This document shows, piece by piece, positions 833-19,126 of a stretch of DNA of 64,000 bases. The first letter of the stretch is position 1; every line of letters starts with the position of its first letter. This DNA is from Arsukibacterium sp. UBA3155 (GTDB taxonomy: Bacteria > Pseudomonadota > Gammaproteobacteria > Enterobacterales > Alteromonadaceae). The position numbers and the translations under genes were made by a program. Location: assembly GCA_002364615.1 (NCBI GenBank), contig DEYP01000018.1, forward strand, positions 1-64,000, in the 5' to 3' direction. A model generated the notes under the pieces. That model worked only from the letters and a program-made list of their open reading frames with translations, was not told the origin of the DNA and ran no database searches.

Positions 833-918
833 TGATTTGGTTATTTTCAAAGATAATATAGGTTTAAGATTTCTTCGGTACCATCAACGCAAAAATAAAT
901 CTTGCAAGCGATCTTAGA

Positions 919-947
919 GCGGGTTAGCCTTTACTTAAGGCGCCCGC
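919..947. other. Hairpin downstream of the Gp2-like gene
   Basis: GCGGG/CCCGC and GCCTT/AAGGC pair into a two-part stem in the 274-nt gap between the first two genes. There is no T-run, so it may be a weak terminator or simply a structured spacer. A second short dyad, CCAGGT(N6)ACCTGG, lies at 1030-1047. Nothing else is recognised in this gap. Confidence 0.3.
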
Positions 948-1106
948 CTCACTTACATGCGAGTGAAAACAGGCAAAAATCGCTAACGCGTATCAATGTT
1001 ATGTATAAACAGAATTTACTAACTTAATTCCAGGTTGAGCTACCTGGCCTTAATCGCATGCGGTCATGGTTAATTGCCCACGGCACTCAGCCACCGGAGT
1101 TAATTT

Positions 1107-2198: not shown

Positions 2199-2208
2199 AA
2201 ACGGCATA

Positions 2209-2232
2209 AGGCTACCGCATATGCGGTAGCCT
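2209..2232. terminator. 24-nt perfect palindrome between convergent genes
   Basis: AGGCTACCGCAT followed directly by ATGCGGTAGCCT forms a perfect 12-bp inverted repeat. Read on the minus strand it is followed within a few bases by T-rich sequence (complement of the A-run at 2189-2201). It probably acts as a terminator between the convergent stops at 2198 and 2242. Confidence 0.6.
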
Positions 2233-2241
2233 ATATCTGCG

Positions 2242-2802
2242 TTAAATTTCCAGTTCAATAAAGTCTTTATCAATATCCTCCTGGGTAATGCCGATGTAGC
2301 GCAGCGTCACACCTTCAGAGCTGTGTCGCAGCATCTTCATTACCCTGGCAATGTCTTTGGTTGATTTGTATAAGTGGTAACCGCGGGTTTTGCGCATCGA
2401 GTGCGTGCCAAGGTCGATGCCGACATCTTCACCTATCAATGCAAAAGCCCGGCTAACATAACGACGTGATAGTGGCGCCGGCGGCAAGTTACCGGCTCGC
2501 TGATTTCGATACGACTGAAACAGATAAGTATGATCCAGGTGTTGTCGTCTAATCCTGTTGGTAATTTCAATCGTCTTCTGGTTAAGTTTAATATTGGCCA
2601 ACTTGCCGGTCTTACCTTCTTTAAGTAATAATCTTTGATCCTGGATATCGGTAAACCGAACTGACAGCAGATCGGTTATTCGCAGTGCCAGGTTTAAACC
2701 AATATTCCAAATATCCGCCATTTGTTGGCCATAGTGCCTGTCCAATAGGTGACTAATCAGTTTCACCGTGTCCAGGCTTTTGACCGCTTGTACCTCAGCC
2801 AT
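2242..2802 (-). CDS. Small tyrosine recombinase (catalytic domain only)
   Basis: About 186 aa from the ATG at 2802, which has a GAGGA site 8 nt upstream; a TTG two codons earlier lacks one. The tyrosine recombinase residues are visible: Arg43 (ALRITDLL), Lys66/69, His136-x-x-Arg139 (HSMRK), His162 and Tyr171 (numbered from the TTG). The N-terminal core-binding domain of phage integrases is absent, so this is a minimal recombinase of the kind found as accessory genes in marine gammaproteobacterial islands. It lies downstream of a short radC-like gene on the same strand, with a 35-nt inverted repeat between them that could be its site. Its target is unknown. Confidence 0.85.
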   Translation of the reverse strand: MAEVQAVKSLDTVKLISHLLDRHYGQQMADIWNIGLNLALRITDLLSVRFTDIQDQRLLLKEGKTGKLANIKLNQKTIEITNRIRRQHLDHTYLFQSYRNQRAGNLPPAPLSRRYVSRAFALIGEDVGIDLGTHSMRKTRGYHLYKSTKDIARVMKMLRHSSEGVTLRYIGITQEDIDKDFIELEI

Positions 2803-2886
2803 AGTCAAGTTCCTCTTTTCGATTAAAACGCAGTTTTGAGAACTTCAGCACAGTGCAAAAAGTAACAGTGCCGGTTTATAAGGCTT

Positions 2887-2921
2887 GCCAAGTTCCCAAA
2901 AGGCTAATTTGGGAACTTGGC
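2887..2921. repeat. 14-bp inverted repeat with 7-nt spacer, candidate recombinase site or terminator
   Basis: GCCAAGTTCCCAAA (2887-2900) and its exact reverse complement (2908-2921) flank a 7-nt spacer, AGGCTAA. No T-run follows directly on either strand, so a simple terminator is not the best reading. The geometry, two inverted arms around a 7-nt centre, matches a tyrosine recombinase core site, and it lies 119 nt upstream of the small recombinase gene. Confidence 0.5.
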
Positions 2922-2953
2922 CATTTATGCCGTTTTTCTACAAATTAGTTAAG

Positions 2954-3430
2954 TTACAGAAGCCCACGCTCTGCGAACGAAACAGCTGTTTCGCCTACCA
3001 CAATGTGGTCCAGCACTTTAACGTCGATAACGGCCAACGCATCAGTTAGCCGGCGGGTGATGCGTTTGTCAGCCTCTGATGGTTCAGAAACTCCGGAAGG
3101 ATGGTTGTGGGCAAAGATCACCGCGCCGGCATTGTGTTCCAGTACCAGCTTTACCACTTCACGTGGATACACCGGTGCAGCATCAATAGTACCGAAGAAC
3201 AATTCTCTGAATTCGATTAGCCGATGTTGGTTATCCAGCAGCATTACCGCGAAAACCTCTCGCTCATGATGCGCCAGTTTGTAAGTTAAATAGTCCTTAG
3301 TGGCTTGTGGGTTAGTAAAGGCATCTTGCCGGGCATATTTCTTGGCAATCAAAGTCGCCGCTTTATCTAAAACTTCCAATGCAGCAACTGACCATTTTAC
3401 AACGTCAGCAGCAGTAGGTTTAGGGGCCAT
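2954..3430 (-). CDS. RadC-like JAB/JAMM-domain protein, short accessory form
   Basis: 158 aa. The JAMM metal motif HNHPSGVSEPSEAD is intact, as in RadC. The N-terminal helix-hairpin-helix domain of chromosomal RadC is missing, which is typical of the short RadC-like proteins on phages and islands. Their biochemical role is unsettled despite the DNA repair name. AAGGAG lies 7 nt before the ATG. A full-length paralogue is encoded at 28059-28733. The gene is divergent from the AlpA-type regulator and upstream of the small recombinase. Confidence 0.9.
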   Translation of the reverse strand: MAPKPTAADVVKWSVAALEVLDKAATLIAKKYARQDAFTNPQATKDYLTYKLAHHEREVFAVMLLDNQHRLIEFRELFFGTIDAAPVYPREVVKLVLEHNAGAVIFAHNHPSGVSEPSEADKRITRRLTDALAVIDVKVLDHIVVGETAVSFAERGLL

Positions 3431-3892: not shown

Positions 3893-3970
3893 ATGGGGAA
3901 AATGAAGGGACTCTTGTTCGCTTGCTGGTTGCCAAAAAGAGCTTTCGATGCAATCGCTGTCAGAGGCTGA
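3893..3970 (+). CDS. Candidate 25-aa leader ORF overlapping the retron effector start
   Basis: ATG at 3893 opens a 25-codon frame ending at 3970. It overlaps the first 23 nt of the effector gene in another frame. It has the best ribosome site in the area (AAAAGGA, 6-9 nt upstream), while the effector's own site is only GAG. This suggests a translated leader that couples ribosomes into the effector start. The peptide (MGKMKGLLFACWLPKRAF...) is basic with a short hydrophobic stretch and no family is recognised. Confidence 0.3.
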   Translation: MGKMKGLLFACWLPKRAFDAIAVRG

Positions 3971-5162
3971 GGCCGTACAAAAATGGCTTGCCAACTTCGG
4001 AGATGCCGATCAACCAGCAGCTTTGGATTTGATTAATGAAGTAATGCTGGTCAGTAGAGATGATTTTGCTGACGGTTTGAAATCATTATTGGATTCGATT
4101 AGCGGTACTCCAAATTGTGGTATAAATATCGCTCTTTATGCTGAACGACCGATTAAGAAAGTTTTTGGCAGAATCCCAAGTTTTTTTCCTCAATCTAGAC
4201 GTGGTCGAGCTGAAGGTAATGGCATTCCTCCGATAGTTGTTGACCCTAGAGATCAAGAGGTTGGCAGTGAGGGCGTTGTCGCGAATCTAATTACTGATTA
4301 CTCCCGGCAGAAAGGGCCGAATTACATATCGCACCCCGGACCTGATAAATTGAGAAAAGAAAAAGTGAGAGTTATAGCGATTGTCACTGATTTCATTGGT
4401 TCCGGGAAGCGAGTTCTGGATATGCTTGAATCTTTAGGACATGTGGCAACTCTTAATAGCTGGAATTCTTATCATCTTATTCGGTTTGTTGTCCTGGCAT
4501 ACTCTGGTGCCGCTGATGGATTAAAAGCTGTTCGATCTCATAAGTTGCAACCTGAGGTTTTAATAGTAATGGGATGCCCAACTATTCAAAATACCTTTAA
4601 AGGCAAAAGACGGACAGAAGTGGAAAGAGTTTGTAAAAAATACCCCAAAAGAAACAAAAATCCTCTCGGGTTTATGCAGAGCGGCGCGCTAATCGCATTT
4701 TCTCATGGTTGTCCTAACAACTCACCGCCTATTCTTCATAGCAAAGCAGCCGGATGGAAACCTCTATTCCACGGGAGGAGCACCAGTGAGCTTCCTGCGG
4801 AATTATTTCAGCTCAAAGATTTTGAGCAGCGAGCTAAAAATCTTCTCGGTATTAGGGAGGCCAGGGAAACCCTCTCTAGCCATAAAAACAGTGAGTGGTT
4901 ATCAGTATTAAAAGTGCTGTCGGCCGCAGAGTCAGGTTTAAGATTTACAGATGACATCTCTGCAAAAACTCGAATAGAGGTAAATTCCGTTAATGAAATC
5001 CTCTCATTGACAATACAAGCGCTTTGGTTGGATAGCCAGAACCGATTGACGCAGCTAGGGGAACGTGAGTTGGCTCGCTTTCGTAAGCGCCGAAAAAAAA
5101 CGCCTTTGCTTGCTGGTGATGAAGGAAAATATTACTATCCAACTCAGCTGAGGACTTCATGA
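3948..5162 (+). CDS. Retron effector: phosphoribosyltransferase-like domain with winged-helix C-terminus
   Basis: 404 aa. Residues 140-160 carry a phosphoribosyltransferase-type loop, IAIVTDFIGSGKR, and 251-264 carry FSHGCPNNSPPILH, a signature I associate with the conflict-system 'PRTase-CE' domain. Residues 315-380 look like a winged helix ending in LTQLGERELARF. Similar effectors accompany one class of retrons (type III as I recall). It precedes the msr-msd RNA and reverse transcriptase, and its last codons form the a1 arm of that RNA. Inferred role: a toxic effector held inactive by the RT-msDNA complex and released during phage infection. The start has no good in-frame alternative, because a stop lies 45 nt upstream. 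Confidence 0.8.
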   Translation: MQSLSEAEAVQKWLANFGDADQPAALDLINEVMLVSRDDFADGLKSLLDSISGTPNCGINIALYAERPIKKVFGRIPSFFPQSRRGRAEGNGIPPIVVDPRDQEVGSEGVVANLITDYSRQKGPNYISHPGPDKLRKEKVRVIAIVTDFIGSGKRVLDMLESLGHVATLNSWNSYHLIRFVVLAYSGAADGLKAVRSHKLQPEVLIVMGCPTIQNTFKGKRRTEVERVCKKYPKRNKNPLGFMQSGALIAFSHGCPNNSPPILHSKAAGWKPLFHGRSTSELPAELFQLKDFEQRAKNLLGIREARETLSSHKNSEWLSVLKVLSAAESGLRFTDDISAKTRIEVNSVNEILSLTIQALWLDSQNRLTQLGERELARFRKRRKKTPLLAGDEGKYYYPTQLRTS

Positions 5163-5362
5163 TCGAGATTAGACATTTGTCACGAGAGTGGCAAGGGGTT
5201 CTGTTTTTGGGACCCTGGATGCGGGAGTTCCTGCATTCGTTTCGCGGAGCTGTATTTTCATGCTGCGCATTAGTGCGCGTTAGCCCAGGCGACGTCTTCA
5301 GGCTAACGCGCACTAATCCCCACCGAGGTGGGTCAAAGTAATGTCTTCATGGAGTTCTCAGC
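5147..5362 (+). ncRNA. Retron msr-msd RNA
   Basis: All expected parts are visible. The a1 arm (5147-5162) pairs with a2 (5347-5362) over 16 bp with two G-U pairs, and a further 7 bp (5171-5177 with 5340-5346) continue inward. Three msr hairpins follow: 5177-5194 with a GAGA loop; 5196-5215 with a T-rich loop (TGTTTTTG) like the UUU loops bound by retron RTs; and 5219-5236. The msd stem is a perfect 17-bp inverted repeat (5269-5285 with 5301-5317) around a 15-nt loop. A small stem, 5319-5332, abuts the RT ribosome site. The branch guanosine is probably G5165 or G5172. Unusually, a1 overlaps the effector stop codon and a2 lies within the RT reading frame. Confidence 0.85.
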
Positions 5363-6483
5363 GCTATAAATTTGAAGGCGAAACACAAGGAATTGATGAC
5401 AGCGTTCTAGATAGTTCTATTTCGGCAATTGGACGAATTCAGAAAGTTGACGAGCGGCTACCTATTATCTTAACTTTGCGTCATTTCAGCTTGTTGACAG
5501 ATTGCCATTTCGGCTATCTGAGAAGAGTAGTAAGTCGAGAATCTAGAGAGTATAAACGCATTCTTTTCAAGAAAAAAGTTCCGGGCAGATCTCGTTATCG
5601 TGAGATACATGTCCCTGAACAAGAATTGCTTGAAGTTCAGCAATGGGTTACGGCAAAAATATTAAGTAATACCAAAGCGCACCATTCGAGCTTTGCATAT
5701 CATCCTAATTCGCAACCGATTTTCGCAGCAAGCCAACATTGTGGCTGTAAATGGCTACTAAAAATTGATATCGAAGATTTTTTTCACAGTATATCTGAGA
5801 GAATGGTTTATAAGGTTTTTAAGGACCTTGGTTATAATAAGCTGCTATCGTTTGAGTTGGCTCGAATAACTACAATTGTGAAAGCTAGGGACAAAAGCCA
5901 AGCTTCATCAGACTTAACTAAGTGGCCTGCCATTCCGACGTATTGCAAAAATAGTGAAGGCTTTCTTCCGCAGGGTGCTCCATCAAGCCCAATGCTTTCA
6001 AATCTTGTTATGAAAAGTGTTGATGAAAAGCTGGCAACTTTAGCCAAGACTAATGGGTTTATATATAGTAGGTATGCTGATGATCTTGCATTTTCAACGA
6101 AGCTGAATGTAGGCATGGTATCTATGAGACAGTTAAGTAAGCTAGTTAGCTGTTTACTTAGCGCGGAAGGGTTTAATCTGAATAAGAGAAAAACAGTCAT
6201 TCGTGGGCCAGGCACTAGGAGAATTATACTCGGCATTTTAGTCGATAGTAAAAAACCTAGATTAAGTAAGGAATACAAGGATGATTTACGGCAGCATCTT
6301 TACTACCTATGCTCTCAGGATCATGGGCCGTCAAAGCATGCTGAAATACGTAAAATTTCAGTTTCAACTTTATTTCACCATATTAGGGGTAAGATAGCAT
6401 GGGCAGAAAAAGTTGAACCAGAATTTGGCGCATACTGCTTGGAGCAATTCAATGGTATAAAGTGGCCTCCATTGGGCTATTAA
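5341..6483 (+). CDS. Retron reverse transcriptase
   Basis: 380 aa. RT motifs in order: KIDIEDFFHSI (141-151, motif A), LPQGAPSSPMLSN (209-221, motif B), RYADDLAFS (244-252, catalytic YADD), and a retron region-X element AASQH at 129-133 (NAxxH-like). The usual VTG of region Y is replaced by ILG (297-299). No fused domains are seen and the length is normal for retron RTs. GAGGTGGG lies 8 nt before the ATG and is partly folded into the 5319-5332 stem, so RT translation may be tied to RNA folding. It would make msDNA from the overlapping RNA and bind the upstream effector. Confidence 0.93.
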   Translation: MSSWSSQRYKFEGETQGIDDSVLDSSISAIGRIQKVDERLPIILTLRHFSLLTDCHFGYLRRVVSRESREYKRILFKKKVPGRSRYREIHVPEQELLEVQQWVTAKILSNTKAHHSSFAYHPNSQPIFAASQHCGCKWLLKIDIEDFFHSISERMVYKVFKDLGYNKLLSFELARITTIVKARDKSQASSDLTKWPAIPTYCKNSEGFLPQGAPSSPMLSNLVMKSVDEKLATLAKTNGFIYSRYADDLAFSTKLNVGMVSMRQLSKLVSCLLSAEGFNLNKRKTVIRGPGTRRIILGILVDSKKPRLSKEYKDDLRQHLYYLCSQDHGPSKHAEIRKISVSTLFHHIRGKIAWAEKVEPEFGAYCLEQFNGIKWPPLGY

Positions 6484-6601: not shown

Positions 6602-7492
6602 TTAAAAAGCATGCCGCTTAACTTCATCCAAATTCGCTACCATTATCTGCTGCGCCTCCGGGCGCGCTTCTATCTTTGCCAGGTCCAGGTTTAATGCCTG
6701 CACGGCATAGGGTACCAGCGCAGAGCGTACTGAAATAACCCGTTTACCGTCAGTCATATTGTAATCTTCGGCAATAATGGCTTTTTGATAGTCGCTTAAC
6801 CTGGAGTCTGGCATTAGCACGATGTCTATTTTGGTATTCCAGCGATCATCCTGAACTTTGGTCATATTGGCATCGCCTTCGATGCCATTTATGCCGCGAA
6901 ACCGACTCAGCACAAAATCGCGATACTCCCGGTTCTTTTCGCAGTAAGCACGTACATGCCAGCGAAGTGGGGTACAAACCAGAGTGTGCGGGGCGATTAT
7001 GCGGCTTTCTTCATCAGGCGAAGTGAGTGACACGTAGCCCATATCAATCTTTTTGCCATCGCGCGCGGCTTGAACCAAGGCGCGTAAAATGTCCGGATTA
7101 ACCTGCCGCAGCGGTGGTGTTAGCATTTCAGTATGGGCAAAGCCTAAATCGAGCTGGCTGAAAGTGTGGGCAAAGTCTTTAATGCTGGCTAAGGCATGCA
7201 GATATTCATCTGCCAGGCCGCTGGTTAGCTTGGGTGAAAAATCAGGTGCGGGTTTATAGCCTTTAAGCTTACCGTCGTAGATCAGGTTACCCGGTGCCAC
7301 ATCGCGCAAATAAGCATTAATGTCTTTTGACGCTTGCTGGCGGGCAATACCAAAACTGTTGCATAAGTGGTTGGTTGTTAGCCGGCCTTCCCAAAGGGCG
7401 ACAATTTCAATTAGCCGGTAACGCATTAACAGCTCCCAGCGAATGGGCCAGCCTTCAGTTTCACGCTGCGCAATGTGTTCCATCGTTTTCAT
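6602..7492 (-). CDS. WYL-domain transcriptional regulator (BrxR/CapW-like)
   Basis: 296 aa. A winged helix (about 20-75, with RQQASKDINAYLRD as the likely recognition region), a WYL domain (about 125-205, RWHVRAYC) and a C-terminal dimerisation region follow in the order and length of BrxR/CapW. These repressors control BREX, CBASS and other defence loci and sense a still unclear ligand through the WYL pocket. AAGGA lies 8 nt before the ATG. The gene converges on the retron. A tandem 10-bp repeat lies 48 nt upstream of its start. It may regulate itself, the small gene upstream, or the retron. Confidence 0.85.
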   Translation of the reverse strand: MKTMEHIAQRETEGWPIRWELLMRYRLIEIVALWEGRLTTNHLCNSFGIARQQASKDINAYLRDVAPGNLIYDGKLKGYKPAPDFSPKLTSGLADEYLHALASIKDFAHTFSQLDLGFAHTEMLTPPLRQVNPDILRALVQAARDGKKIDMGYVSLTSPDEESRIIAPHTLVCTPLRWHVRAYCEKNREYRDFVLSRFRGINGIEGDANMTKVQDDRWNTKIDIVLMPDSRLSDYQKAIIAEDYNMTDGKRVISVRSALVPYAVQALNLDLAKIEARPEAQQIMVANLDEVKRHAF

Positions 7493-7539
7493 ACTTACAA
7501 TCCTTTAAATGTGTATGCAAAGCGTGCACGAGTAAACAC

Positions 7540-7560
7540 TACATATCAATTACATATCAA
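7540..7560. repeat. Tandem 10-bp repeat upstream of the WYL regulator
   Basis: TACATATCAA occurs at 7540-7549 and 7551-7560, an 11-nt period (one helical turn). On the minus strand each copy begins TTGATA, a -35-like element for the WYL gene. This placement suits an operator overlapping a promoter. Confidence 0.4.
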
Positions 7561-7563
7561 GGG

Positions 7564-7842
7564 CTAGGCGGGCCAGGCCAAATGGTGCTGTTTTGAAAGA
7601 GCTTGCTCTTGCTCCAGCCACTTTACAAAATTATGTACCGTTAATCCATAATTACGTGCCAGTACATAGTACTCATATGCTAAATAGACTAAATCGGCAT
7701 AACACCAAATCTTCCCTTCACAAATCACCTTATCGCTACGGTGCTCAGCTAAATGGGCAATTTTAGTCATCAGTTCGCGCAGTTTACCTATCCTAATCAG
7801 CGCAGGTAAATCATCGCTTGTAACGTTAAAGTTTATGGCCAT
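7564..7842 (-). CDS. Small protein of unknown function upstream of the WYL regulator
   Basis: 92 aa, not recognised. It appears all-helical, with a Leu/Tyr-rich middle (YADLVYLAYEYYVLARNYGL) and no signal peptide. It is 71 nt upstream of the WYL regulator on the same strand, so co-transcription is possible. GGGAG lies 11 nt before the ATG, a long spacing. Coding status is moderately likely. Confidence 0.45.
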   Translation of the reverse strand: MAINFNVTSDDLPALIRIGKLRELMTKIAHLAEHRSDKVICEGKIWCYADLVYLAYEYYVLARNYGLTVHNFVKWLEQEQALSKQHHLAWPA

Positions 7843-7880
7843 CAGTCAATTGCTCCCGTTTATGTAGCTTTATACCTGTC

Positions 7881-8003
7881 ATCCTTGAAGCTGCAGGGGT
7901 GTTGGCTGCCTTCACTCACTGGTGCGCCAGCCCGGCCCAATCGCATAGATAGCTATGCTCATGGAGATTCATTCAGTTGCCGCCTACCTGCAACTTCAAT
8001 GAT
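7881..8003. repeat. Hairpin repeat family A, copy 1
   Basis: A 123-bp element with 17-nt terminal arms matching 15 of 17 as inverted repeats (7881-7897 and 7987-8003). Its interior (GGGTGTTG, CGCCAG, CCAATC, GCTCATGG, GATTCA, GCCGCCTAC) recurs in the same order at 23667-23761. Copy 1 has about 17 extra nt near 7910-7926. It fills part of the 439-nt gene-free stretch 7843-8281. The rest (8004-8281) shows no gene or motif I can name. Confidence 0.7.
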
Positions 8004-8281
8004 TTTGGGTATAGTTATTCACTCATATAAAAACTGTAGAGTAATTAAGCCAGGTACCCAACGCTTATTAAAGAATGCAAAAAAGCTCCTGCCTGAAAAA
8101 CATACACTGAGCATCTGCACAGTATGGTGTGAATTTGGAAACTACCTAAGATGTGCAGCAAGGGATGACATGTCGCTATCAGTGACATAGTGAATGGACA
8201 AGGCTGCAGGAAGTGGCCAACAGGATGTAACAAGGACAAGCTGGCAGGGATGCCAATTACTCAAAGGCCAGAGGTATAGCA

Positions 8282-8578
8282 ATGAATTACGCACAACACG
8301 AGCTGTTTTTAATCAATTTACGCCAGCAGTTTTCAGACATTTTTTTAGTAAGTAAGGCGGGAAAAGACAATTCTGAACAGAGGCTACGCGCTCAGGGTTT
8401 TATCCACGCTGGTGAGCTACTTGAAATATGCGGTCGGCAGGAAGTGCAGCAACTAATGGAGCAGGTACACCTGGAAGTGTTTGGGGTAACCATAGCCGAG
8501 CGGAAACCCAGCGAATTGGCGCGCCGCCAGCAGGCACTAAAGCTAGGTGATTATGATTACTTTGATGAGCCGGCCTGA
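8282..8578 (+). CDS. Small island protein of unknown function
   Basis: 98 aa, not recognised. It is mostly helical and charged, with an acidic aromatic end (LGDYDYFDEPA). AGAGG lies 8 nt before the ATG, which supports translation. It stands alone between repeat element A and the long leader of the sigma-factor operon. Confidence 0.5.
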   Translation: MNYAQHELFLINLRQQFSDIFLVSKAGKDNSEQRLRAQGFIHAGELLEICGRQEVQQLMEQVHLEVFGVTIAERKPSELARRQQALKLGDYDYFDEPA

Positions 8579-9062
8579 TCGCGTTTAAAGCGTTGAGTAT
8601 AGATTGGAAGTTTAGATTTTATTAATGACCGTCAGGCGGGTTATCAAATCATATATCAGCTGCAGAAAACCAGTACTTGTTGTATTGGTATTCATTTGTT
8701 AATTTAGGTACGTAATAGTCATACCCTTAGTCAATAGATCTATATTTTGCAGTCGCTTTAAATCAGCTTGTTAGGAGCTTGATTAAAGCTGTGAGGCATC
8801 ACTGGACCACTTGTCATTAGAACGAGAATCAATGTGTGCATAGTTCAACGGAAGTGTGCAGGTCTTTTTAACTGGAGACTTCAAAGATTATACAGGGAGA
8901 GTTTTTTGGCATTTGGCATCATTGGAAACATTTTGAATTTATTGGGTTTTTCTCTCCGGGAGTACTTAAAACTTCCAACTTCTTTTATAGTTTGGTGGCT
9001 TTAGTTGATGCTAGATGTAACTTATTGCTTGCTTTTGATAATTGCTGGGTTAGCAAAAGCCT
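8579..9062 (+). promoter_or_regulatory. 484-nt leader upstream of the ankyrin-sigma operon
   Basis: No recognised gene. It presumably carries the promoter for the five-gene defence operon. A GGGAGA site at 8895-8900 sits 5 nt before a TTG-initiated 32-codon hydrophobic frame (8906-9004). A distant inverted pair, TTGGAAGTTT (near 8604) and AAACTTCCAA (near 8967), brackets much of the region. The sigma ORF itself lacks a convincing ribosome site. Confidence 0.3.
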
Positions 9063-11435
9063 ATGATTAAGCTTAATCCATTGCTGCGTCTAGCTATTAT
9101 CACAAATGCTCAAACAGCTATAAAACACCATATCCAAAAAGGCGACGACATAAATGGAGTAGACAGCAATGGAGCGACTCCTTTAATTTTGGCTGCAACC
9201 AGAAAGAACACTGATGTTGTCAGACTTTTGCTGGCTGCCGGGGCTGAACCAAACTTGGTTGATAATAAAGGCAATAATGCTCTTTTCTATGCTATTAAAA
9301 GTAATTGTCCTGATTTGATTCAGTTGCTTACGAATTTAAATATAAATATGCGTTCCAGTTCATACGATATCAGTACGGTAGAGACCGACCAATCTATAAA
9401 AGAAGAGTCATGTTCTCCCGAAGATTTGACGCAATTTAGGCCAAATAGTTTTGCTATCTCAGAAGATAATAATACCTCAATTTATAGCTTACAAACACCG
9501 GGATCAAATGAAAGCGCAATGGTACTCGAAGTAAATGACAACTCTCCAAAGACAGAGGTTGGTGAGCAAAGCTTTATCGATGATATTTGTCATGAGCCGA
9601 ATTATCAAGTTCACAAGACTATAGATAATAACGAAGTATTAGGTGTTGGATTTCCGGTTTTATACATTGAAAAGCATAGTGATTTGAACAATAGCGTCAA
9701 CACTGCGACATCTAAATATGAATTGCCAACTCATAACTTGAGTACCTCCGTCTTGCTTGATGAAGAACCTTTAGACTCGTGCCTTATCGATGAGTGGATT
9801 ACAGAAAAGGAACCGGTTGCACCTGATGGCGATGAACAAGTTGTAGAAGCTGTTAAGAATGTACATAACGCTATTGGTCGACATAGGGCTTTAGATAGAG
9901 ACGAAGATTGGGGCGAAATAGATCTTTATTTGCCTGAGCGCTCAGAATTACTGAACAAAGGCGATATCGATGAAACTCTCACAACATTTCTACTTTCTGC
10001 TGTTAGTTTGGGAAGTGTTTCCGAAACAGAGTTAATTGAGCTTTGTTTAGACCCCGACGGTTCGCGAAATCCTGATTCTGAGGGAGTTATTTCCTATGTT
10101 GTTGGCGAGCTCAAGTCGATTATCGGCGAATACAGCGAACTTTATTTTGAGGAAGTAGATTTGGAAAATGCATCGTCTGAAGAAAAATTTCAGATAGATG
10201 AAGCCAGAGATTTCATCAAGGAACTCGCCTCTAACTATAATGAGCCGTCCAGATTTTACTACAAAAATGTTCGGGGTAAACTTCTTGAAGCTGAGGAAGA
10301 AATTTCCCTGGGCAAGCAGATGGAAGATTCATTGCAAAGCGCCTTGCTCGCTCTAGCGCAATGGCCAGAAGGGCTTTCTGTTTTGTTTGAAAAAGCTGAT
10401 AAGGTTGTTCTGGGTGAGATTGAATCAAAGTCTATCAGTCGAGGGCTAAACTCAGACAGTGAAGGTGATGATCAAATTTCAGATGAGATGTTAAATGACG
10501 ATGAAGACTTTAAGGAAGGTAGTGAAATTGCTCCTTCAGGATTTTTGGATGCGATAGGCGCTGTCCGTGATGCTGAGGGAGATATCCAATTAACTGTTGA
10601 AGCATTGAAAGTATTGAGATTGACTCGTCAGTTTCTTTTTGAGCTGGTTGGTAAGCAAAAAGACTCTAATGCTTTTTATCAAGACTTTTTGACTGCATTA
10701 GAAAGTTATTCCCAAGCCAGACAACATATGATTCAGAGCAATCTGAGATTGGCTTTATCTATTGCCAAGAAATACTCTCGCTCTGATTTAGCGATGGATG
10801 ATCTGATTCAGGAAGCAAATATTGGCCTAATGAAAGCGGTTGAGCGTTTTGACTGGCGTAGAGGATTTCGTTTTTCAACTTATGCTACTTGGTGGATCCG
10901 TCAGCAAGTAACAAGGGGTATAGCAGACACAGAAAGAACGGTTCGAGCTCCAGTTCATGTTCAAGAAAAGGCCAGAAAGCTGCTTCGCGAGCGAGAAGAA
11001 ATGCAGCTTCGAAGTGGGATGCCTGAAACTGATATCGAAACTGCGAGACGTATAGGTGCTTCTTTGTCTTCCACTTGGCAGCTTCTTTCAATGTTTGAAA
11101 AGGCAGAGTCGCTTGATGACCAAGACTTTTCAATGAATTTAGCAGACGTCAATTTCCTAGATGAATCAGACCCATCAACGCCTGAGGAACAAGCTATTTA
11201 TGAGTCTCTCTGCAGAGTAATCCACAAAATGTTGCAGGAATTCGATCCCCGATCCAGGGAGATAATAATTTCTCGCTTTGGTCTTTTTGAATCAAACGAA
11301 ATGACCCTTGAAGAAGTTGGGCAGTCTTTTGGTGTTACTCGTGAGCGCATTCGGCAAATCGAATCAAAGGCCATGAGTAAACTTTTTCATCGGGAGAGAA
11401 AGGAAGTTCTAGCACCATTTTTAAATAAGGAATGA
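9063..11435 (+). CDS. Ankyrin-repeat / sigma-70 fusion protein, first gene of the defence operon
   Basis: 790 aa. Residues 5-97 hold about three ankyrin repeats (NGATPLILAATRKNTDVVRLLLAAGAEPN is the clearest, 36-64). An acidic low-complexity linker (about 100-290) follows. Residues 300-440 contain sigma region 1.1/1.2-like sequence (LLEAEEEISLGKQMED). Residues 548-620 are region 2 (DDLIQEANIGLMKAVERFD, STYATWWIRQQVTR), 630-700 region 3, and 748-771 region 4.2 (TLEEVGQSFGVTRERIRQIE). All core-binding and promoter-recognition regions seem intact, so it should act as a sigma factor. Its stop overlaps the next gene at ATGA, tying it to the MORC-Z1-nuclease-AIPR operon. Inferred role: infection-responsive activator of the operon or a phage-transcription sensor. 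The start is uncertain because the ribosome site is weak. Confidence 0.88.
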   Translation: MIKLNPLLRLAIITNAQTAIKHHIQKGDDINGVDSNGATPLILAATRKNTDVVRLLLAAGAEPNLVDNKGNNALFYAIKSNCPDLIQLLTNLNINMRSSSYDISTVETDQSIKEESCSPEDLTQFRPNSFAISEDNNTSIYSLQTPGSNESAMVLEVNDNSPKTEVGEQSFIDDICHEPNYQVHKTIDNNEVLGVGFPVLYIEKHSDLNNSVNTATSKYELPTHNLSTSVLLDEEPLDSCLIDEWITEKEPVAPDGDEQVVEAVKNVHNAIGRHRALDRDEDWGEIDLYLPERSELLNKGDIDETLTTFLLSAVSLGSVSETELIELCLDPDGSRNPDSEGVISYVVGELKSIIGEYSELYFEEVDLENASSEEKFQIDEARDFIKELASNYNEPSRFYYKNVRGKLLEAEEEISLGKQMEDSLQSALLALAQWPEGLSVLFEKADKVVLGEIESKSISRGLNSDSEGDDQISDEMLNDDEDFKEGSEIAPSGFLDAIGAVRDAEGDIQLTVEALKVLRLTRQFLFELVGKQKDSNAFYQDFLTALESYSQARQHMIQSNLRLALSIAKKYSRSDLAMDDLIQEANIGLMKAVERFDWRRGFRFSTYATWWIRQQVTRGIADTERTVRAPVHVQEKARKLLREREEMQLRSGMPETDIETARRIGASLSSTWQLLSMFEKAESLDDQDFSMNLADVNFLDESDPSTPEEQAIYESLCRVIHKMLQEFDPRSREIIISRFGLFESNEMTLEEVGQSFGVTRERIRQIESKAMSKLFHRERKEVLAPFLNKE

Positions 11436-11440
11436 CGGTA

Positions 11441-12943
11441 GTGTTGCTAAAGAAAAGACATGCGCCACCAAAAGCCAGTGCAATGATTGAAGCACTCCGC
11501 GGGCTTGGATACTCAACTGCTGCATCGCTGGCAGATGTTATCGACAACTCAATTTCTGCCGGGGCAACAGAAATTCGCTTGCAGTTCTACTGGGACGGTT
11601 TACAGAGTCGAATAAGTATTATAGACAACGGGCGTGGCATGAATGATGCTGAACTCGAAGCTGCTATGACCCTTGGAACAATCAACCCATTAGATGAGAG
11701 GCATCCAACAGATCTTGGCCGATTCGGAATGGGACTTAAGACGGCTTCTTTCTCACAATGCCGGAGGCTTACGGTTGCTTCAAGAGTTAAAAATGGTGAC
11801 TTAGTTTGTTTACGTTGGGACTTGGATGCAATTGCTGAATCTTTAGATAGTGACTGGTATATGCTTGAAGGACCAGCAGCCGGGTCAGAACTTTTTATAG
11901 AGAAACTATCTTCGTTTGAATCAGGTACCTTGGTTCTCTGGGAACTAATGGACCGAGTGGTCACGCTTGGTACAGATTTGAATCATTTTTCTGACATGAT
12001 TGATGACATAGAACTGCGTCTAGGTATGATATTTCACCGACTAATTGAAGGAGCACGACCTGGTTTTCGTCTTTTCATTAATGACAAGCAGGTTGCCCCT
12101 TGGGACCCGTTCATGACTGGGAATCCGGGAAAAGCTCTTGAATCTCCGATTGAACGAAAAAGCACGTCTTCAGGTGTTGTAGAAGTCCAGTGTCATGTCC
12201 TACCGCACAGGGATAAGCTTTCGGAGGAAGAATTTCTTAAAGCTGGTGGCCCTGAAGGATGGACATCGCATCAAGGTTTCTATGTTTATCGGAATAAGCG
12301 TCTTTTGTTGGCTGGAAATTGGTTAGGGTTAGGAAAAGGACGGGCTTGGCATAGAGAAGAGCCGCATCGACTTGCAAGAATTCGTATTGATATACCGAAT
12401 ACCGCGGATGCAGATTGGAAAATTGATATTAAAAAATCGACTGCCCGCCCGCCAGTTTTTGTGCGCAACTGGCTTACAAAACTTGCCGAAAGTACAAGAG
12501 ATAAAGCGCGCAAGGTATTTGCTTTTCGCGGTTCCCCAACAACTGGTATCGGTGGCGAACCAATTGAGCATACTTGGCGTGTTGAACATCTGAAAAGTGG
12601 TGTCCGTTACAGGATTGATGTTTCACACCCAGCTGTGTCTGCTGTTATTGAAGCCTGTGGCGGTCATAAAGACCTTGTTAAGGCAATGCTTAGGGTTGTT
12701 GAAGAAACTGTTCCAGTTCAGCGAATATGGCTTGATACAGCAGAAAATAAAGATACGCCTAGAACAGGGTTTGATGGAGAACCGAATGATACAGTTGTAG
12801 AAGTGGCAACTGTTCTATTTAACGATTTGATCGAGCGCAAGGGATTGAGCGTTGAGGATGCCCACCAGTCTATGCTGAGAACGGAGCCTTTCCAAAAATA
12901 CCCCTCCCTAATAGCGAATTTAAGGAAAACATTAAATGAATAA
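11441..12943 (+). CDS. MORC/MutL-like GHKL ATPase of a defence system
   Basis: About 500 aa from the GTG at 11441, which has AAGGA 9 nt upstream; the ATG at 11432 has no room for one. The Bergerat-fold motifs are present: LADVIDNSISAGA (N-box), IIDNGRGM (G1) and LGRFGMGLKTASFS (G2). A C-terminal half without catalytic motifs follows, as in prokaryotic MORC-like proteins that accompany restriction-modification genes. Such ATPases are thought to clamp or loop DNA for a partner helicase and nuclease. The stop overlaps the Z1 gene by 8 nt, so the two are translationally coupled. Confidence 0.9.
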   Translation: MLLKKRHAPPKASAMIEALRGLGYSTAASLADVIDNSISAGATEIRLQFYWDGLQSRISIIDNGRGMNDAELEAAMTLGTINPLDERHPTDLGRFGMGLKTASFSQCRRLTVASRVKNGDLVCLRWDLDAIAESLDSDWYMLEGPAAGSELFIEKLSSFESGTLVLWELMDRVVTLGTDLNHFSDMIDDIELRLGMIFHRLIEGARPGFRLFINDKQVAPWDPFMTGNPGKALESPIERKSTSSGVVEVQCHVLPHRDKLSEEEFLKAGGPEGWTSHQGFYVYRNKRLLLAGNWLGLGKGRAWHREEPHRLARIRIDIPNTADADWKIDIKKSTARPPVFVRNWLTKLAESTRDKARKVFAFRGSPTTGIGGEPIEHTWRVEHLKSGVRYRIDVSHPAVSAVIEACGGHKDLVKAMLRVVEETVPVQRIWLDTAENKDTPRTGFDGEPNDTVVEVATVLFNDLIERKGLSVEDAHQSMLRTEPFQKYPSLIANLRKTLNE

Positions 12944-15842
12944 AACGGACGGCACTGGTTCGCAAGCTGAGTTATTGGAGAATATCATAGCCACAGCTCA
13001 GAGACTGGTTAAAGCTGAAAAAGATAAATCTAATGTTACCCCGGCGTTCATATTAGAGAAAGTCAAACTTGCAACCATGGTTTTCGGTGGTGATTCACAT
13101 GATTTAGTAGATCAAAAACAAGCCGTAGCAACACTTATTCAGCGCTTTAGTCATCGGATTGGTAAATCTACCACATTAAAAGACGATATTGATCATGTTG
13201 ATTGGTTATCTGCTTCTCGCAAACGTGACTGGCAATACTGGCGTCGCTACAAAGATTATCTCGAGTCAAAACTTTCAGATGTTGTGGTAGAAGGGTTGAA
13301 TGAAGCCACCGATGACATTCTTAGTCTTTTGGAAGATCCAAAACGAGTCGACTCATGGGATCGTCGTGGGCTAGTTGTTGGCCATGTCCAGTCAGGTAAA
13401 ACTAGTAATTATTCAGGTCTAATTTGTAAGGCTGCTGATGCTGGATACAAGATCATTATTGTACTTGCAGGGATGCACAATAATCTGAGATCACAAACAC
13501 AAATAAGACTAGAGGAGAGTTTTCTCGGTTATGAAACAACAGTTGATCGAGACCCCGGAAAACCAATAGGTGTAGCAGAATTTGGTGGCGATTTAAAAAC
13601 TAACTCTGCTACAACAAGAGCTGAGAATGGTGATTTTAATAAGGCTATAGCAAAGCATTTTCATGGTATAACTCCTGAAGAACGACCGTGGCTTTTCGTT
13701 GTAAAAAAACAGAAGACAGTGTTAACAGCACTTTTGCGGTGGTTACAAACGCGTGTAGCCGACAGCACAGATGAGAACGATGGAAGAAGCCTTGTAACTA
13801 AGTTGCCGTTATTGATGATAGATGACGAAGCCGACAACGCTTCTGTGGATACCGGCGAACAGTCATTCAATGAAGATGGAACACCGGACGAGGAGCATCA
13901 GCCGAAAACTATCAACAGCCTCATCAGACAGATCCTTCACTCCTTTACTCGAAAGGCATATGTTGGTTACACCGCAACGCCGTTTGCAAACATTTTTATT
14001 CATCAAAAAGGGGCCACTATAAAGGAAGGTCCTGATGTTTTTCCAAGCTCTTTTATCATTAACTTAGCTGCACCATCAAATTATGTTGGTCCCACACGAA
14101 TGTTTGGCAAATTAACAAAAGATGGTCGAACTGAAGGACTACCACTTTCTAGATTCATTCTCGACGTCTATAACGATGAAACAAGATCAGGTTGGATGCC
14201 TCCTACACACAAGACAATTCATATTCCGACTTTTCAAGGGGAAGAGGTTATTCCACCTTCTCTTCAGGAGGCAATTTACTCATTTATATTGGCATGTGCT
14301 ACTCGACAATTACGTGGGCAAGAAGGCGAGCACTGTTCAATGCTAATACACGTAACTCGTTTCGTTAACGTTCAAAAGCAAGTCTATGAACAGGTTGAAA
14401 CTTTTATACGTCAAGTTCGACAAAGAATTGCACGGAGAATGGGTACGGAAGATATTCTAGAACAGTTAAGGAAGCTCTGGGAGAATGATTTCATTCCTAT
14501 CAGCTATAAGGTCGCCGCGTTATCACCGAAAGAGGAATTGCCTCCACAAATGCCAGAGTGGAAGGAAATTCTTAATGTTTTACCAGAGGTGCTGGAGGAT
14601 ATTGAAGTTCGAGCTATTAATGGAACGGCAAAAGACGCATTAGATTACGTGACTCCGGGCGCTGCCCTTAAAGTCATAGCTGTGGGTGGAGACAAGCTGG
14701 CTCGAGGTTTAACGCTTGAAGGTTTATGTACTAGTTACTTCGTTCGGACCACAAAGATGTACGATACCTTAATGCAGATGGGGCGATGGTTTGGATATCG
14801 ACCAGGTTATTTAGACTTATGCCGGTTATATACGTCACCTGATTTGGTTAATTGGTTTGGTCATATTGCAGATGCTGCGGAAGAGCTTCGAGAGGAGTTT
14901 GATTTTATGTCTGCAGCGAAGCTGACTCCCAAGCAGTATGGTCTCAAGGTATTGTCGCATAAGGTGATGATGGTGACCTCACCATTGAAGATGCGGAACT
15001 CTCAGAAGTTAGCACTCACCTATAGTGGAACGCGTCCTCAGACAATCCTCTTTCATCGAGATGCCAATATTCAGCAAAACAACCTGGACGCTACCGACTC
15101 ATTAGTGCTATCTCTTGGAACTTCTTTTACAGAGTCCCCCAAATACGATCGTGATGGAGTTCAAGACTCTTGGTCAAACGCAAGACTTTGGAGAGATGTG
15201 GATGTTGCTAAAGTTCTCGATTTTCTGAATAGTTATATTACTCATCCTACAGCGACGAGCGCAAACGCATCAGTCTTGTCAGAGTTCATAACTAAAATGG
15301 TTGAAACTGGGCAATTGACCAGATGGAGTATTGCTTTATTAAGTGGCGGGAAAGGGGAGGGGAAGAAGCACACTTTTCCGGGGGGGACGGCATCCAAGAA
15401 TTATTTCATCCGTAAAACTGAGGATTCCGAGGACTATGAACTTCAGGAGCCTGGCAAGTTTTCTATTGGAGTGTTGACTGATCCTAAGGATGAGGGAATC
15501 GATCTAAACGATGATGTCTGGCGTCAAGCGTTGAAGGCAACTCTTGACGCATGGAAGCCTGATCATGCTCGTGGCCGAGTTAAGCCTCCGCAGGTCCCTA
15601 GTGGTAAAGGGATTCGCGAAATCCGAGGTAAACTAGGTGATGAAGTTGATAGAGGTTTACTGCTGCTATATCCGCTTAGCCCTTATCATGACAACGGAAA
15701 GCTGAAAGGAAAATGTATAGTTCCTGGTTGGACAAAGCCCATAATGGCTTTTGCTATGGCATTCCCATCAAGTGACAATGCTATAACAGTGGTGTATGAC
15801 GTAAATGACCTCTTTTGGAATCAAGAACATGGCCCGCTCTAG
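12936..15842 (+). CDS. Z1-domain superfamily 2 helicase-like protein
   Basis: 968 aa. Helicase motifs: GHVQSGKTSN (149-158, Walker A), LLMIDDEADNAS (292-303, DEAD-type Walker B), VGYTATPFAN (343-352, motif III), GGDKLARGLTLEG (584-596, motif V) and QMGRWFGYR (614-622, motif VI with the arginine finger). This is the classic Z1 pattern. Z1 proteins occur with MORC ATPases, DUF4420 nucleases and C5 methylases, where they probably translocate on DNA for the nuclease. AAGGA (12922-12926) lies 9 nt before the ATG. Confidence 0.93.
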   Translation: MNKTDGTGSQAELLENIIATAQRLVKAEKDKSNVTPAFILEKVKLATMVFGGDSHDLVDQKQAVATLIQRFSHRIGKSTTLKDDIDHVDWLSASRKRDWQYWRRYKDYLESKLSDVVVEGLNEATDDILSLLEDPKRVDSWDRRGLVVGHVQSGKTSNYSGLICKAADAGYKIIIVLAGMHNNLRSQTQIRLEESFLGYETTVDRDPGKPIGVAEFGGDLKTNSATTRAENGDFNKAIAKHFHGITPEERPWLFVVKKQKTVLTALLRWLQTRVADSTDENDGRSLVTKLPLLMIDDEADNASVDTGEQSFNEDGTPDEEHQPKTINSLIRQILHSFTRKAYVGYTATPFANIFIHQKGATIKEGPDVFPSSFIINLAAPSNYVGPTRMFGKLTKDGRTEGLPLSRFILDVYNDETRSGWMPPTHKTIHIPTFQGEEVIPPSLQEAIYSFILACATRQLRGQEGEHCSMLIHVTRFVNVQKQVYEQVETFIRQVRQRIARRMGTEDILEQLRKLWENDFIPISYKVAALSPKEELPPQMPEWKEILNVLPEVLEDIEVRAINGTAKDALDYVTPGAALKVIAVGGDKLARGLTLEGLCTSYFVRTTKMYDTLMQMGRWFGYRPGYLDLCRLYTSPDLVNWFGHIADAAEELREEFDFMSAAKLTPKQYGLKVLSHKVMMVTSPLKMRNSQKLALTYSGTRPQTILFHRDANIQQNNLDATDSLVLSLGTSFTESPKYDRDGVQDSWSNARLWRDVDVAKVLDFLNSYITHPTATSANASVLSEFITKMVETGQLTRWSIALLSGGKGEGKKHTFPGGTASKNYFIRKTEDSEDYELQEPGKFSIGVLTDPKDEGIDLNDDVWRQALKATLDAWKPDHARGRVKPPQVPSGKGIREIRGKLGDEVDRGLLLLYPLSPYHDNGKLKGKCIVPGWTKPIMAFAMAFPSSDNAITVVYDVNDLFWNQEHGPL

Positions 15843-16851
15843 TGAAGAGTTCATTTTAGCTTGGTCTGCTCTCGCATTTAAGAATGTTGAATGCGAGGAA
15901 ATCGGCTGGCAGGCCATTTTTTTACCCTCTGCTGGTTCTGTAGAGGTTCAGGCTGGACTGCGGTCTCCCAATAATGAGGAGGCGGTATTATTTTCTTTCC
16001 CGAATGCACGGATTACAAATAGAGAAAGATTACCCGAAGGTAAAGGATTCCTTGTTGAGAAGACAGAAACTTTTGGAAGTGGTGGTGTAAGGTTAGCTTT
16101 GACTAGAAAGATTGATGGTGATCTGGAATTGTTTACAACAATGGTCTGCGACATTGTAGGATCGATAGATGTAGCTGCAGCCGCAAATATGTCGGAATCC
16201 GGTTTATTACAAACTCTCATCAAACGGGTATTGCACTGGCAACGATTTATGTCACGAAATACAAATCCTTTAAGTCCTGAAGCAGAGCTCGGATTGGCAG
16301 GAGAACTTTATTTCGTGAAAGTTTTGCTTAAATCGCACTTACCGTCGGAAGTAGTTTTAAATGCATGGGTTGGACCAGAAGATGCACAACAAGATTTCTT
16401 GCTAGGGCAAGGTGCTATCGAAGTCAAGGCTACGATGTCGTCGTCGGGGTTTCCTGTGAAAATTGGTAGTTTAGAGCAATTAGATGATGCAGTTGCTTCG
16501 CCACTTTTTCTGGCCGCAGTAAAGTTTGTGGGAACTGACGAAGGTATGACTTTATCAGGCATGGTAACTGATATTGAGCATATTCTTAGGGAAGAACCCG
16601 AAATGGTTAATCTGTTTTATGAACGATTACTCCTTGCTGGATATACAGCTTCTCATTCAGAACAATACACCCGTCAATTTGAACCTAAAGAACAACGTAT
16701 ATTCATTGTGACGAATGATTTTCCCCGTATGACAACGGCTTCTGTCCCTGCCGGAGTAATCAGAGCCATCTATGAAATTAATTTGGATCAAGTGAAAGGT
16801 TTCTTTATTGAGTTGGATACGATGCTTAAAAAACTTGGAGTGACAGGATGA
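15829..16851 (+). CDS. PD-(D/E)XK nuclease, DUF4420-like
   Basis: About 340 aa from the ATG at 15829; an upstream ATG at 15805 is possible and both overlap the Z1 gene. The nuclease core is visible as E167 (LAGELYF), D197 (QQDFLLG) and E206-V-K208 (AIEVKA), numbered from 15805. This is the PD-(D/E)XK arrangement of the DUF4420 family. It is the likely DNA-cleaving subunit of the operon, with the Z1 helicase as motor and the cytosine methylase giving self-protection. The stop overlaps the AIPR start at ATGA. Confidence 0.85.
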   Translation: MARSSEEFILAWSALAFKNVECEEIGWQAIFLPSAGSVEVQAGLRSPNNEEAVLFSFPNARITNRERLPEGKGFLVEKTETFGSGGVRLALTRKIDGDLELFTTMVCDIVGSIDVAAAANMSESGLLQTLIKRVLHWQRFMSRNTNPLSPEAELGLAGELYFVKVLLKSHLPSEVVLNAWVGPEDAQQDFLLGQGAIEVKATMSSSGFPVKIGSLEQLDDAVASPLFLAAVKFVGTDEGMTLSGMVTDIEHILREEPEMVNLFYERLLLAGYTASHSEQYTRQFEPKEQRIFIVTNDFPRMTTASVPAGVIRAIYEINLDQVKGFFIELDTMLKKLGVTG

Positions 16852-18629
16852 CCCTTGACGATTTTTTGATGGAAATGCGAGTCGAAATAGCTTCTCAAAT
16901 CAGTGATGGCTCGTCTTTTACCGAACTTATTTTTTGCGAAGTTGTAATGCAACATCTGATGGATGCAGGGATGACCTTTGAGCCTGTAGTTTGCCATTAT
17001 CAAGGGAAGATAGGGAATGCAATTCTCAAATTGAGCGGTTATGCGATGTCTGAGGATGCGGAGCAGTTGGATCTTTTTGTTAGCCTTTATGAGGGGTTTG
17101 AGGTTCTTACACCAATACAAGAACACGACACCAAAACTGCTGCTCAACAATGTATCCGCTTTCTGGAGCTTTGTGCTAACGGGCGCCTTCAAGACAAGCT
17201 AGATCCGACCAGTGACGCACACTCCTTATCCTTAACTATCGGTGAAATTTATAACAGTCTCGAACAAGTACGAATTTTCGTTCTCACAGATGGTGTCGCA
17301 AAATCCAAAAACTTTAAAGCGCGAGAAATCGGTGGAAAAACTGTAAAACTAGAAGTTATGGACATCGAGCGACTTTTCCGCCATCGCTCTGAGGGTAAGC
17401 CACGAGATGAGCTTGTTATAGATTTTAAAGACGTTTCAGGATCCCCGTTGCCTTGTGTATATGTTCCCGGCGACTCAGGAGATTATGATTACGCATTGAC
17501 AGCAATACCAGGCGAGGCCCTAAGATTTCTCTACGAGAAGTTTGGTCCGAGATTGTTGGAAGCCAATGTAAGATCTTTTCTAAGTGTTAGAGCTAAGGGA
17601 GTAAATGCCGGTATTCAAAGTACTCTTCGCACTTCTCCTGAGCGATTCATGGCATTTAACAACGGTATTGTTTTAGTCGCTGATGAGATGAAGCTTGAAC
17701 GGGCCGAAGATGGTTCCCCAGGACTAATTTGGTTACGTGGAATGCAGATTGTAAATGGAGGTCAAACAACAGCCTCTTTATACTTTGCTAAGAAAAAATT
17801 CCCGGATACCGACCTCAGCAAAGTCAGGGTGCCTGCAAAGATTATTGTGATGAAGGAGGCTGATCCGGCAAAAGAGGAGTCTCTAGTTTCTGATATTTCT
17901 CGTTACGCCAACTCTCAGAATTCGGTTCGGCAATCCGATCTCTCTGCAAATAAACCGTTTCATGTTGATGTGGAAAGGCAGTCGATGACAGTTTATTGTC
18001 CTGATGGAGTAGGGCGCTGGTTTTATGAGCGTGCAGCAGGCAGCTACAACACACTTTTGACTCGTGAAGGCACTACACCTGCCAAACTTCGTGCTCTTAA
18101 AGAATCTTTGCCGCCATCCAGAAAAATAACTAAAACTGAATTGGCAAAATATTTAATGGCTTGGGAGATGAAGTCAGATATTGTTAGTCTTGGAACTCAG
18201 AAGTGCTTTGACAAATTCATGAATTATTTGAGTGAAGCGGAAGAGGCTGGTAATCCAATTGTTGTGGATACAGCTTTTTTCAAAACAATGGTAGCTAAAT
18301 GCATTATGTTTAAGATGGTCCATAAAACAACTAGACCACTTGTATCTGCTTTTCTGGCTAATGTTGTGGTTTACACAATAGCTGTAATAGCAAATAACTA
18401 CGGCGATAAATTTGATTTTGAAAAAGTTTGGCTACGTCAATCGGTTTCAGCTGAGTTTCTTGAGCAAGTTCAGATCTGGGCTCGCGAAGTGAATAATCGG
18501 CTCCATGAAACTGCGAAAGGCAAAATGATTTCAGAATGGGCAAAGCGCGCAGAGTGCAAAGAGGCAATGTTCTCTCGGCCTTTTTCGCCTCCAGTAATTG
18601 ATGTTCCTGAGGTTCGAAAGTTAAGTTGA
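16848..18629 (+). CDS. AIPR-family abortive-infection protein
   Basis: 593 aa. The AIPR signatures are clear: FMAFNNGIVLVAD (267-279), GMQIVNGGQTTASLYFA (298-314) and SRYANSQNSVRQSDLSAN (351-368). AIPR proteins were named from a lactococcal plasmid abortive-infection system and are repeatedly linked to MORC-Z1 loci; their biochemical activity is poorly defined. It is the last gene of the coupled operon and converges on vsr, with a shared terminator hairpin past its stop. Confidence 0.9.
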   Translation: MTLDDFLMEMRVEIASQISDGSSFTELIFCEVVMQHLMDAGMTFEPVVCHYQGKIGNAILKLSGYAMSEDAEQLDLFVSLYEGFEVLTPIQEHDTKTAAQQCIRFLELCANGRLQDKLDPTSDAHSLSLTIGEIYNSLEQVRIFVLTDGVAKSKNFKAREIGGKTVKLEVMDIERLFRHRSEGKPRDELVIDFKDVSGSPLPCVYVPGDSGDYDYALTAIPGEALRFLYEKFGPRLLEANVRSFLSVRAKGVNAGIQSTLRTSPERFMAFNNGIVLVADEMKLERAEDGSPGLIWLRGMQIVNGGQTTASLYFAKKKFPDTDLSKVRVPAKIIVMKEADPAKEESLVSDISRYANSQNSVRQSDLSANKPFHVDVERQSMTVYCPDGVGRWFYERAAGSYNTLLTREGTTPAKLRALKESLPPSRKITKTELAKYLMAWEMKSDIVSLGTQKCFDKFMNYLSEAEEAGNPIVVDTAFFKTMVAKCIMFKMVHKTTRPLVSAFLANVVVYTIAVIANNYGDKFDFEKVWLRQSVSAEFLEQVQIWAREVNNRLHETAKGKMISEWAKRAECKEAMFSRPFSPPVIDVPEVRKLS

Positions 18630-18697: not shown

Positions 18698-19126
18698 TTA
18701 AGGAATCTCATAATACAATTCGCCAGAAAGTAAAAAGCCAGAAACTAAATCCATTAGTTTCTGGCTTTTTATCTCACACTCCCAAACTACAAGCACCCGC
18801 CAACCCAGTTCCATTAGTTTGTCCTGGGCTTCCAAGTCACGCTGCCGGTTGGTCATAAGCTTAACTTTCCACCATTCAGCTCGTGTTGAAGGCCATTTAA
18901 ATAACAAGCAGTTGTGAAGATGCCAGAAGCATCCATGCACAAATATGACTGTTTTGTATTTCGGCAGAACGATATCTGGCTTTCCCGGCATCTCTTTTAC
19001 ATTGAGGCGGTACCGGAAACCAGCTGCGTGAAGCTGCTTACGTAGCATAAGCTCAGGCCGCGTATTTTTATTACGGATCGCGGCCATATTTTTGCTTCTG
19101 GTTTCTTTATCATGAACATCAACCAA
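18698..19126 (-). CDS. vsr: Vsr very-short-patch mismatch endonuclease
   Basis: 142 aa. It nicks at T:G mismatches made when 5-methylcytosine deaminates. The residues match E. coli Vsr in identity and numbering: D51 (GKPDIVLP), H64, H69 (HGCFWHLHNC) and N93, with the VLVVWEC strand at 111-117. The start appears to be TTG at 19126. It sits 12 nt after the methylase, the normal partner arrangement. Its last 20 or so codons coincide with a strong hairpin terminator (18732-18770), so the tail sequence is partly fixed by that structure. Confidence 0.93.
   Translation of the reverse strand: MVDVHDKETRSKNMAAIRNKNTRPELMLRKQLHAAGFRYRLNVKEMPGKPDIVLPKYKTVIFVHGCFWHLHNCLLFKWPSTRAEWWKVKLMTNRQRDLEAQDKLMELGWRVLVVWECEIKSQKLMDLVSGFLLSGELYYEIP
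18732..18770. terminator. Bidirectional terminator inside the 3' end of vsr
   Basis: AAAAAGCCAGAAACTAA (18732-18748) and its exact reverse complement (18754-18770) form a 17-bp stem around 5 nt, with an A-run on one side and a T-run on the other, so it can work in both directions. It lies between convergent AIPR and vsr but within the vsr reading frame, about 10-24 codons before its stop. Confidence 0.8.

Follow-up and report, generated by a model that had tools for sequence, protein, structure and literature searches.

We analysed a 64,000-nucleotide stretch of DNA from Arsukibacterium sp. UBA3155 (contig DEYP01000018.1, positions 1 to 64,000; hereafter the window), in which five overlapping genes on the forward strand, at 9063-18629, follow the order A-B-C-D-E of the MZA antiphage system. 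Families were assigned by hmmscan against the MzaA-MzaE models of PADLOC and the NCBIfam models NF041931-NF041935. The first gene, mzaA (9063-11435), encodes a 790-residue ankyrin-sigma70 protein (PADLOC PDLC02203, E = 2.7e-59; NF041931, 487 bits over residues 3-789), and is followed by mzaB (11432-12943), encoding a MORC-type GHKL ATPase of 503 residues (PDLC02204, E = 7.2e-181; NF041932, 716 bits), and by mzaC (12936-15842; PADLOC MzaC, E = 1.4e-304; NCBIfam, 1165 bits). The run is completed by mzaD (15805-16851), whose 348-residue DUF4420 product is a predicted PD-(D/E)XK nuclease (PADLOC, E = 7.4e-59; NCBIfam, 323 bits), and mzaE (16848-18629), encoding an AIPR protein of 593 residues (PADLOC, E = 2.6e-206; NCBIfam, 895 bits). 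The starts of the third to fifth genes (12936, 15805 and 16848) each fall within the end of the preceding gene, and the TGA stop of mzaA sits within an ATGA at which the ATPase gene begins (11432), exactly as the original prediction for this DNA had described. The extent given there, 9063..12943, takes in the first two genes of an operon that runs on to 18629.

That prediction also offered the locus as a candidate for an undescribed defence system. This is ruled out, because MzaA-MzaE are already named families in PADLOC and NCBIfam and the operon carries these gene names in RefSeq annotation of E. coli; the original mzaABCDE paper is reportedly Gao 2020. By family assignment, the window operon is a divergent member of the known MZA system, with a predicted antiphage role. 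All five proteins score below the NCBIfam equivalog cut-offs (A 487 of 800 bits, B 716 of 850, C 1165 of 1500, D 323 of 420 and E 895 of 1050), which are NCBI's threshold for naming rather than a feature of MZA. In PMC9523054, mzaABCDE is described as a validated system and mzaA as a sigma factor.

In E. coli ET745, where RefSeq names mzaA-mzaB-mzaC-mzaD-mzaE, the five genes, their order, their domains, the ankyrin-sigma MzaA and the four-base mzaA/mzaB overlap are all as in the window, with identities of 32.0% (A), 52.7% (B), 50.1% (C), 35.4% (D) and 50.9% (E). DNA resembling 11432-15300 (9-25% covered) was found in 55 of 5426 E. coli genomes, with mzaC named under the match in 55/55. In a second E. 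coli locus, that of G6/7, IS421 interrupts mzaB (6963-9775 of the fetched stretch), and mzaA, C, D and E are still named.

Related gene neighbourhoods have been described before. The MORC-helicase restriction-modification neighbourhoods of Iyer 2008 (PMC2292703), as its main text presents them, likewise combine a MORC ATPase with a helicase, a predicted nuclease and AIPR, next to cytosine methylase and Vsr genes; that main text has no words beginning with sigma or ankyrin, whereas in the family of the window a sigma gene marks one MORC group only. Other described systems with an AIPR and MORC core set are called reminiscent of mzaABCDE by their authors, in whose text mzaA occurs in only a few of them; the window operon does have mzaA.

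Domain layout of MzaA

The mzaA reading frame opens with ATG and contains no internal stops, and the prediction of an intact 790-residue ankyrin-sigma70 protein was borne out by Pfam matches far beyond chance. Ankyrin repeats occupy residues 10-95 (9090-9347; Ank_2, E = 1.2e-14), sigma region 2 residues 556-625 (10728-10937; Sigma70_r2, E = 5.9e-21), with RpoD-like residues for reading and melting the -10 element at 604-618, and sigma region 4 residues 724-775 (11232-11387; Sigma70_r4, E = 2.8e-15), with the -35 helix VTRERIRQIE at 758-767. Ankyrins together with regions 2 and 4 were present in all 13 MzaA scanned (ten relatives, both E. coli copies and the window protein). The ankyrin part is no local oddity: in a scan of the N-terminal 100 residues of the window MzaA, residues 3-92 aligned with model positions 1-90 of NCBIfam MzaA (79.6 bits), so that this part is included in the published model.

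The earlier description of intact sigma regions 1.2 to 4.2 was somewhat too strong. Regions 1.2 and 3 were not detected in the window MzaA by Pfam at E <= 0.001; region 1.2, with the start of the non-conserved region, was recovered by the RpoD profile PRK05658 (residues 373-482, 10179-10508, E = 1.1e-6). The same description overlooked a diverged region 1.1 at about residues 305-360 (9975-10142), which is supported at the level of the family. In a profile-profile comparison, this block matched 52 RpoD N-termini, some of them from the same genomes as the MzaA rows, over 52 columns with a probability of 93.3 (E = 2.6e-7), and the 56-residue block described below, used as the control, reached a probability of 0.4. 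Among single proteins, the RpoD region 1.1 profile beat all 960 shuffled decoys in 2 of 12 MzaA, the window protein not among them, and we therefore infer a diverged region 1.1 for the family as a whole.

Between ankyrins and sigma lies a linker that had been called acidic, which it is, mildly: residues 96-237 hold 25 Asp and Glu against 7 Lys and Arg in 142 residues. It is followed by a 56-residue block at residues 238-293 (9774-9941), with 16 acidic against 6 basic residues and two tryptophans. Both tryptophans occur in all seven MzaA rows of the alignment (A4) from which a profile of this block was built, and the second in 11/11 rows of alignment A1. The A4 profile matched 4 of 398 genomes (G000, G153, G181 and G246), each time within the mzaA of an MZA locus; these four also supplied rows of the profile, such that the matches reveal no further carriers and are not an independent recovery. 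It did recognise the E. coli MzaA, which lies outside its rows (41.5 bits). The divergent MzaA of G130, G175 and G277, from the same 398 genomes, were missed by the block profiles, and absence of the block elsewhere is accordingly valid only for blocks resembling the profile rows.

Among the matches listed, those spanning the whole of a longer profile (A2), built from the same seven proteins, came only from G000, G153, G181 and G246. Beyond about position 51-72, A2 matches RpoD in most genomes, with 325/398 showing some match at 1e-12. The A2 profile aligns with residues 8-201 of E. coli RpoD as a single domain (89.5 bits), which adds to the family-level support for region 1.1. Taken together, these profile comparisons suggest that the 56-residue block is typical of MzaA.

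Promoter-reading residues and kinship with RpoD

We compared the promoter-reading and core-contact positions of MzaA with those of E. coli RpoD, whose numbering we use and whose residues Q437, T440, R584, E585, R588, Q589 and others we take to have these roles. The -35 helix residues T583, R584, E585, R586, R588 and Q589 are identical to RpoD in 11/11 MzaA, although these proteins share only 24-33% overall identity with the window copy. Q437, W434, R441 and F427 are likewise as in RpoD in 11/11, Y430 in 10/11, W433 in 8/11 and T440 in 7/11, and the window protein has them all. Among four positions that contact the polymerase, D403 and Q406 are unchanged in 11/11, N409 in 8/11 and E407 in 7/11, and the window protein retains all four; the E. 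coli MzaA carries the RpoD residue at every tabulated position except for a Ser at T440. The identity of the -35 helix and of Q437, W434 and R441 in 11/11 proteins suggests that promoter reading is under selection. Furthermore, promoter-reading residues unlike those of RpoD, the mark of an alternative sigma factor, were not found in the window MzaA, and with RpoD-type reading of both -35 and -10 elements a private promoter class would not be expected.

In 6 of 12 MzaA, only 12-18 residues remain of the stretch that holds the sigma finger (E. coli RpoD 505-530, 26 residues), which argues against efficient initiation as the selected task in those six; the window copy has 25. At the level of the family, MzaA resembles RpoD, a group 1 sigma factor, in its build from a putative diverged region 1.1 to region 4 and in its promoter-reading residues, and differs from it in the N-terminal ankyrins, the 56-residue block and its membership of a defence operon.

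The window copy is not the housekeeping gene of its host: a full RpoD is encoded separately in that genome, with 78% identity to E. coli RpoD and 45% identity to the window MzaA in the matched C-terminal part. The closest kinship with a resident RpoD was seen in L062, a locus of genome G585, where the sigma part of MzaA (gene at 9615-11894, reverse strand) shares 73% identity with the RpoD of that genome, the best-scoring of nine RpoD; the other eight MzaA copies compared are 32-59% identical to theirs. The own RpoD was the best match in 5/9 MzaA, cases that are not independent and that we did not use as support for the window copy. In a sigma tree, the many long branches prevent MzaA from being placed as a single group, and only the L062 MzaA nests with (gammaproteobacterial) RpoD; the L062 sigma half looks as if it had been replaced from a host RpoD. 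In locus L071 (6325-8757), a GcrA-like domain (PF07750, 1.8e-17) lies towards the C-terminal end of MzaA. As GcrA is a regulator that associates with sigma70, this domain may represent another link to the polymerase.

Distribution and divergence of mzaA

The sigma gene comes first in 10 of the 25 fetched loci. All ten belong to the 11 loci with a close MzaB, at 50% identity or above (10/11), compared with 0/14 at 32-42%. On the MzaB tree, MzaA presence requires one change (support 79/92), with 0/500 shuffles as low; the tree was midpoint-rooted for drawing only, so that this change may be read as either a gain or a loss.

Across 45 pairs from ten loci, excluding L067, whose fetched piece cuts mzaC, the median pairwise identity was 26.5% for MzaA, 55.8% for B, 53.9% for C, 35.7% for D and 54.5% for E. 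MzaA is therefore the fastest-changing subunit, as expected for a subunit facing phage variation, and from these rates it is a likely specificity part of the system. This divergence is unevenly spread. Identity to the window protein is 32-61% in region 2, 33-50% in region 4 and 26-49% in the ankyrins, and falls to 5-29% in the linker, region 1.1, region 3 and the non-conserved region. In two close MzaA pairs, region 2 had a nonsynonymous divergence (dN) of 0.005 and 0.020, the lowest of any part apart from one 13-codon piece of the linker in which no amino acid differs.

Of 21 chosen loci with long sigma factors matched by the MzaA model, ten (L003, L007, L009, L010, L013, L016, L017, L021, L026 and L033) were set aside, and no ankyrin repeats were seen in the right-frame rows, which were read by eye with no Pfam run; these right-frame proteins are RpoD, mostly with long Lys/Ala-rich N-terminal extensions. 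The underlying genome scan scored two candidates per genome, and its counts are not a measure of absence; a scan of genome contigs yielded one MzaA relative, a 283-residue sigma factor. A tblastn search of plasmids with MzaA matched 293 records, and among the 60 listed, two records lacking annotation (H32 and H33) encode RpoD-type sigma factors, with no ankyrins in translation. The same search of phages matched 68 of 50,697 records, and none of the 25 listed covers 80% of the query. Three short, unannotated gut phage records (MT835895, MT836482 and MT836521; H28-H30) do encode MzaB relatives with 31-35% identity, and MORC-type genes may ride on phages.

Role of the sigma subunit and setting of the operon

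What looked like a new system thus proves to be a known one, and interest shifts to the role of its sigma subunit. In the open-access literature, we found no text giving a reason for the presence of a sigma factor in an antiphage complex, nor several of the comparative facts on MzaA given above. Among these, the single change on the MORC tree, the MzaA-typical linker block, the promoter-reading residues that speak against private regulation and the subunit rates provide handles on this role. Tentatively, and with somewhat less than even confidence, we favour a reading in which MzaA would bind the polymerase and serve as an adaptor or sensor, and not as an activator of its operon.

The original prediction had proposed a dedicated activator, in which the ankyrins keep MzaA inactive until infection and MzaA would steer the polymerase towards the mza promoter. 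That MzaA is a sigma factor with conserved regions 2 and 4, encoded by the first gene and overlapping mzaB, fits this proposal, but its RpoD-type reading residues leave no private promoter to be expected, and a scan of 8300-9120 returned a single sigma70-type site, on the reverse strand (1.7 expected), with none passing on the forward strand. Moreover, 15 of the 25 loci manage without MzaA and hence without such an activator, and half of the MzaA have the shortened finger, from which the window copy is exempt. We consider this role unlikely, and the original interpretation as a whole is supported in part. The RpoD-like reading residues and RpoD-like build, including the putative region 1.1, would suit a substitute sigma factor, which takes over host or defence transcription once a phage inactivates RpoD, or draws the polymerase off phage promoters. 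The L062 copy, so close to its own RpoD, points the same way, but the other eight copies are far more distant from theirs, the finger is shortened in 6/12, and transcription by MzaA is putative; we regard this role as improbable. It is more doubtful still that a sigma gene was captured by chance and now serves mainly as a scaffold, with promoter binding a leftover. Most of MzaA indeed evolves fast, with little conservation in the linker, region 1.1 and region 3; a leftover, however, would not keep its DNA-reading helix residues identical in 11/11 proteins at such low overall identity.

Downstream of mzaE, on the reverse strand, lie two companion genes, one for a Vsr-type endonuclease (18698-19126; TIGR00632, 154 bits, over cut-off), which probably belongs to the modification side, and one for a Dcm-type C5 cytosine methyltransferase (19139-20710; profile matches). 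Dcm or Vsr adjoins 24/25 fetched loci (23 by blastp and L043 by annotation), whereas the annotation of the ET745 (L195) and G6/7 (L196) stretches from E. coli shows neither.

On the other side, at 3948-6483, PRTase-CE and reverse transcriptase genes match the PADLOC models of a type III-A retron (4.5e-121 and 4.7e-167); for the retron RNA, no Rfam match at gathering score was obtained within 1-24000. Further upstream (179-3430) are genes for a YagK/YfjJ-type protein, an integrase-like open reading frame and a RadC-like protein; at 21288-22502, on the opposite side of the retron and MZA genes, lies a gene for a tyrosine integrase that has an arm-binding domain. This arrangement suggests an integrated island with the retron and MZA genes as its cargo. 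A WYL-domain protein, a possible regulator within the island, is encoded upstream of the MZA operon on the opposite strand (6602-7492).

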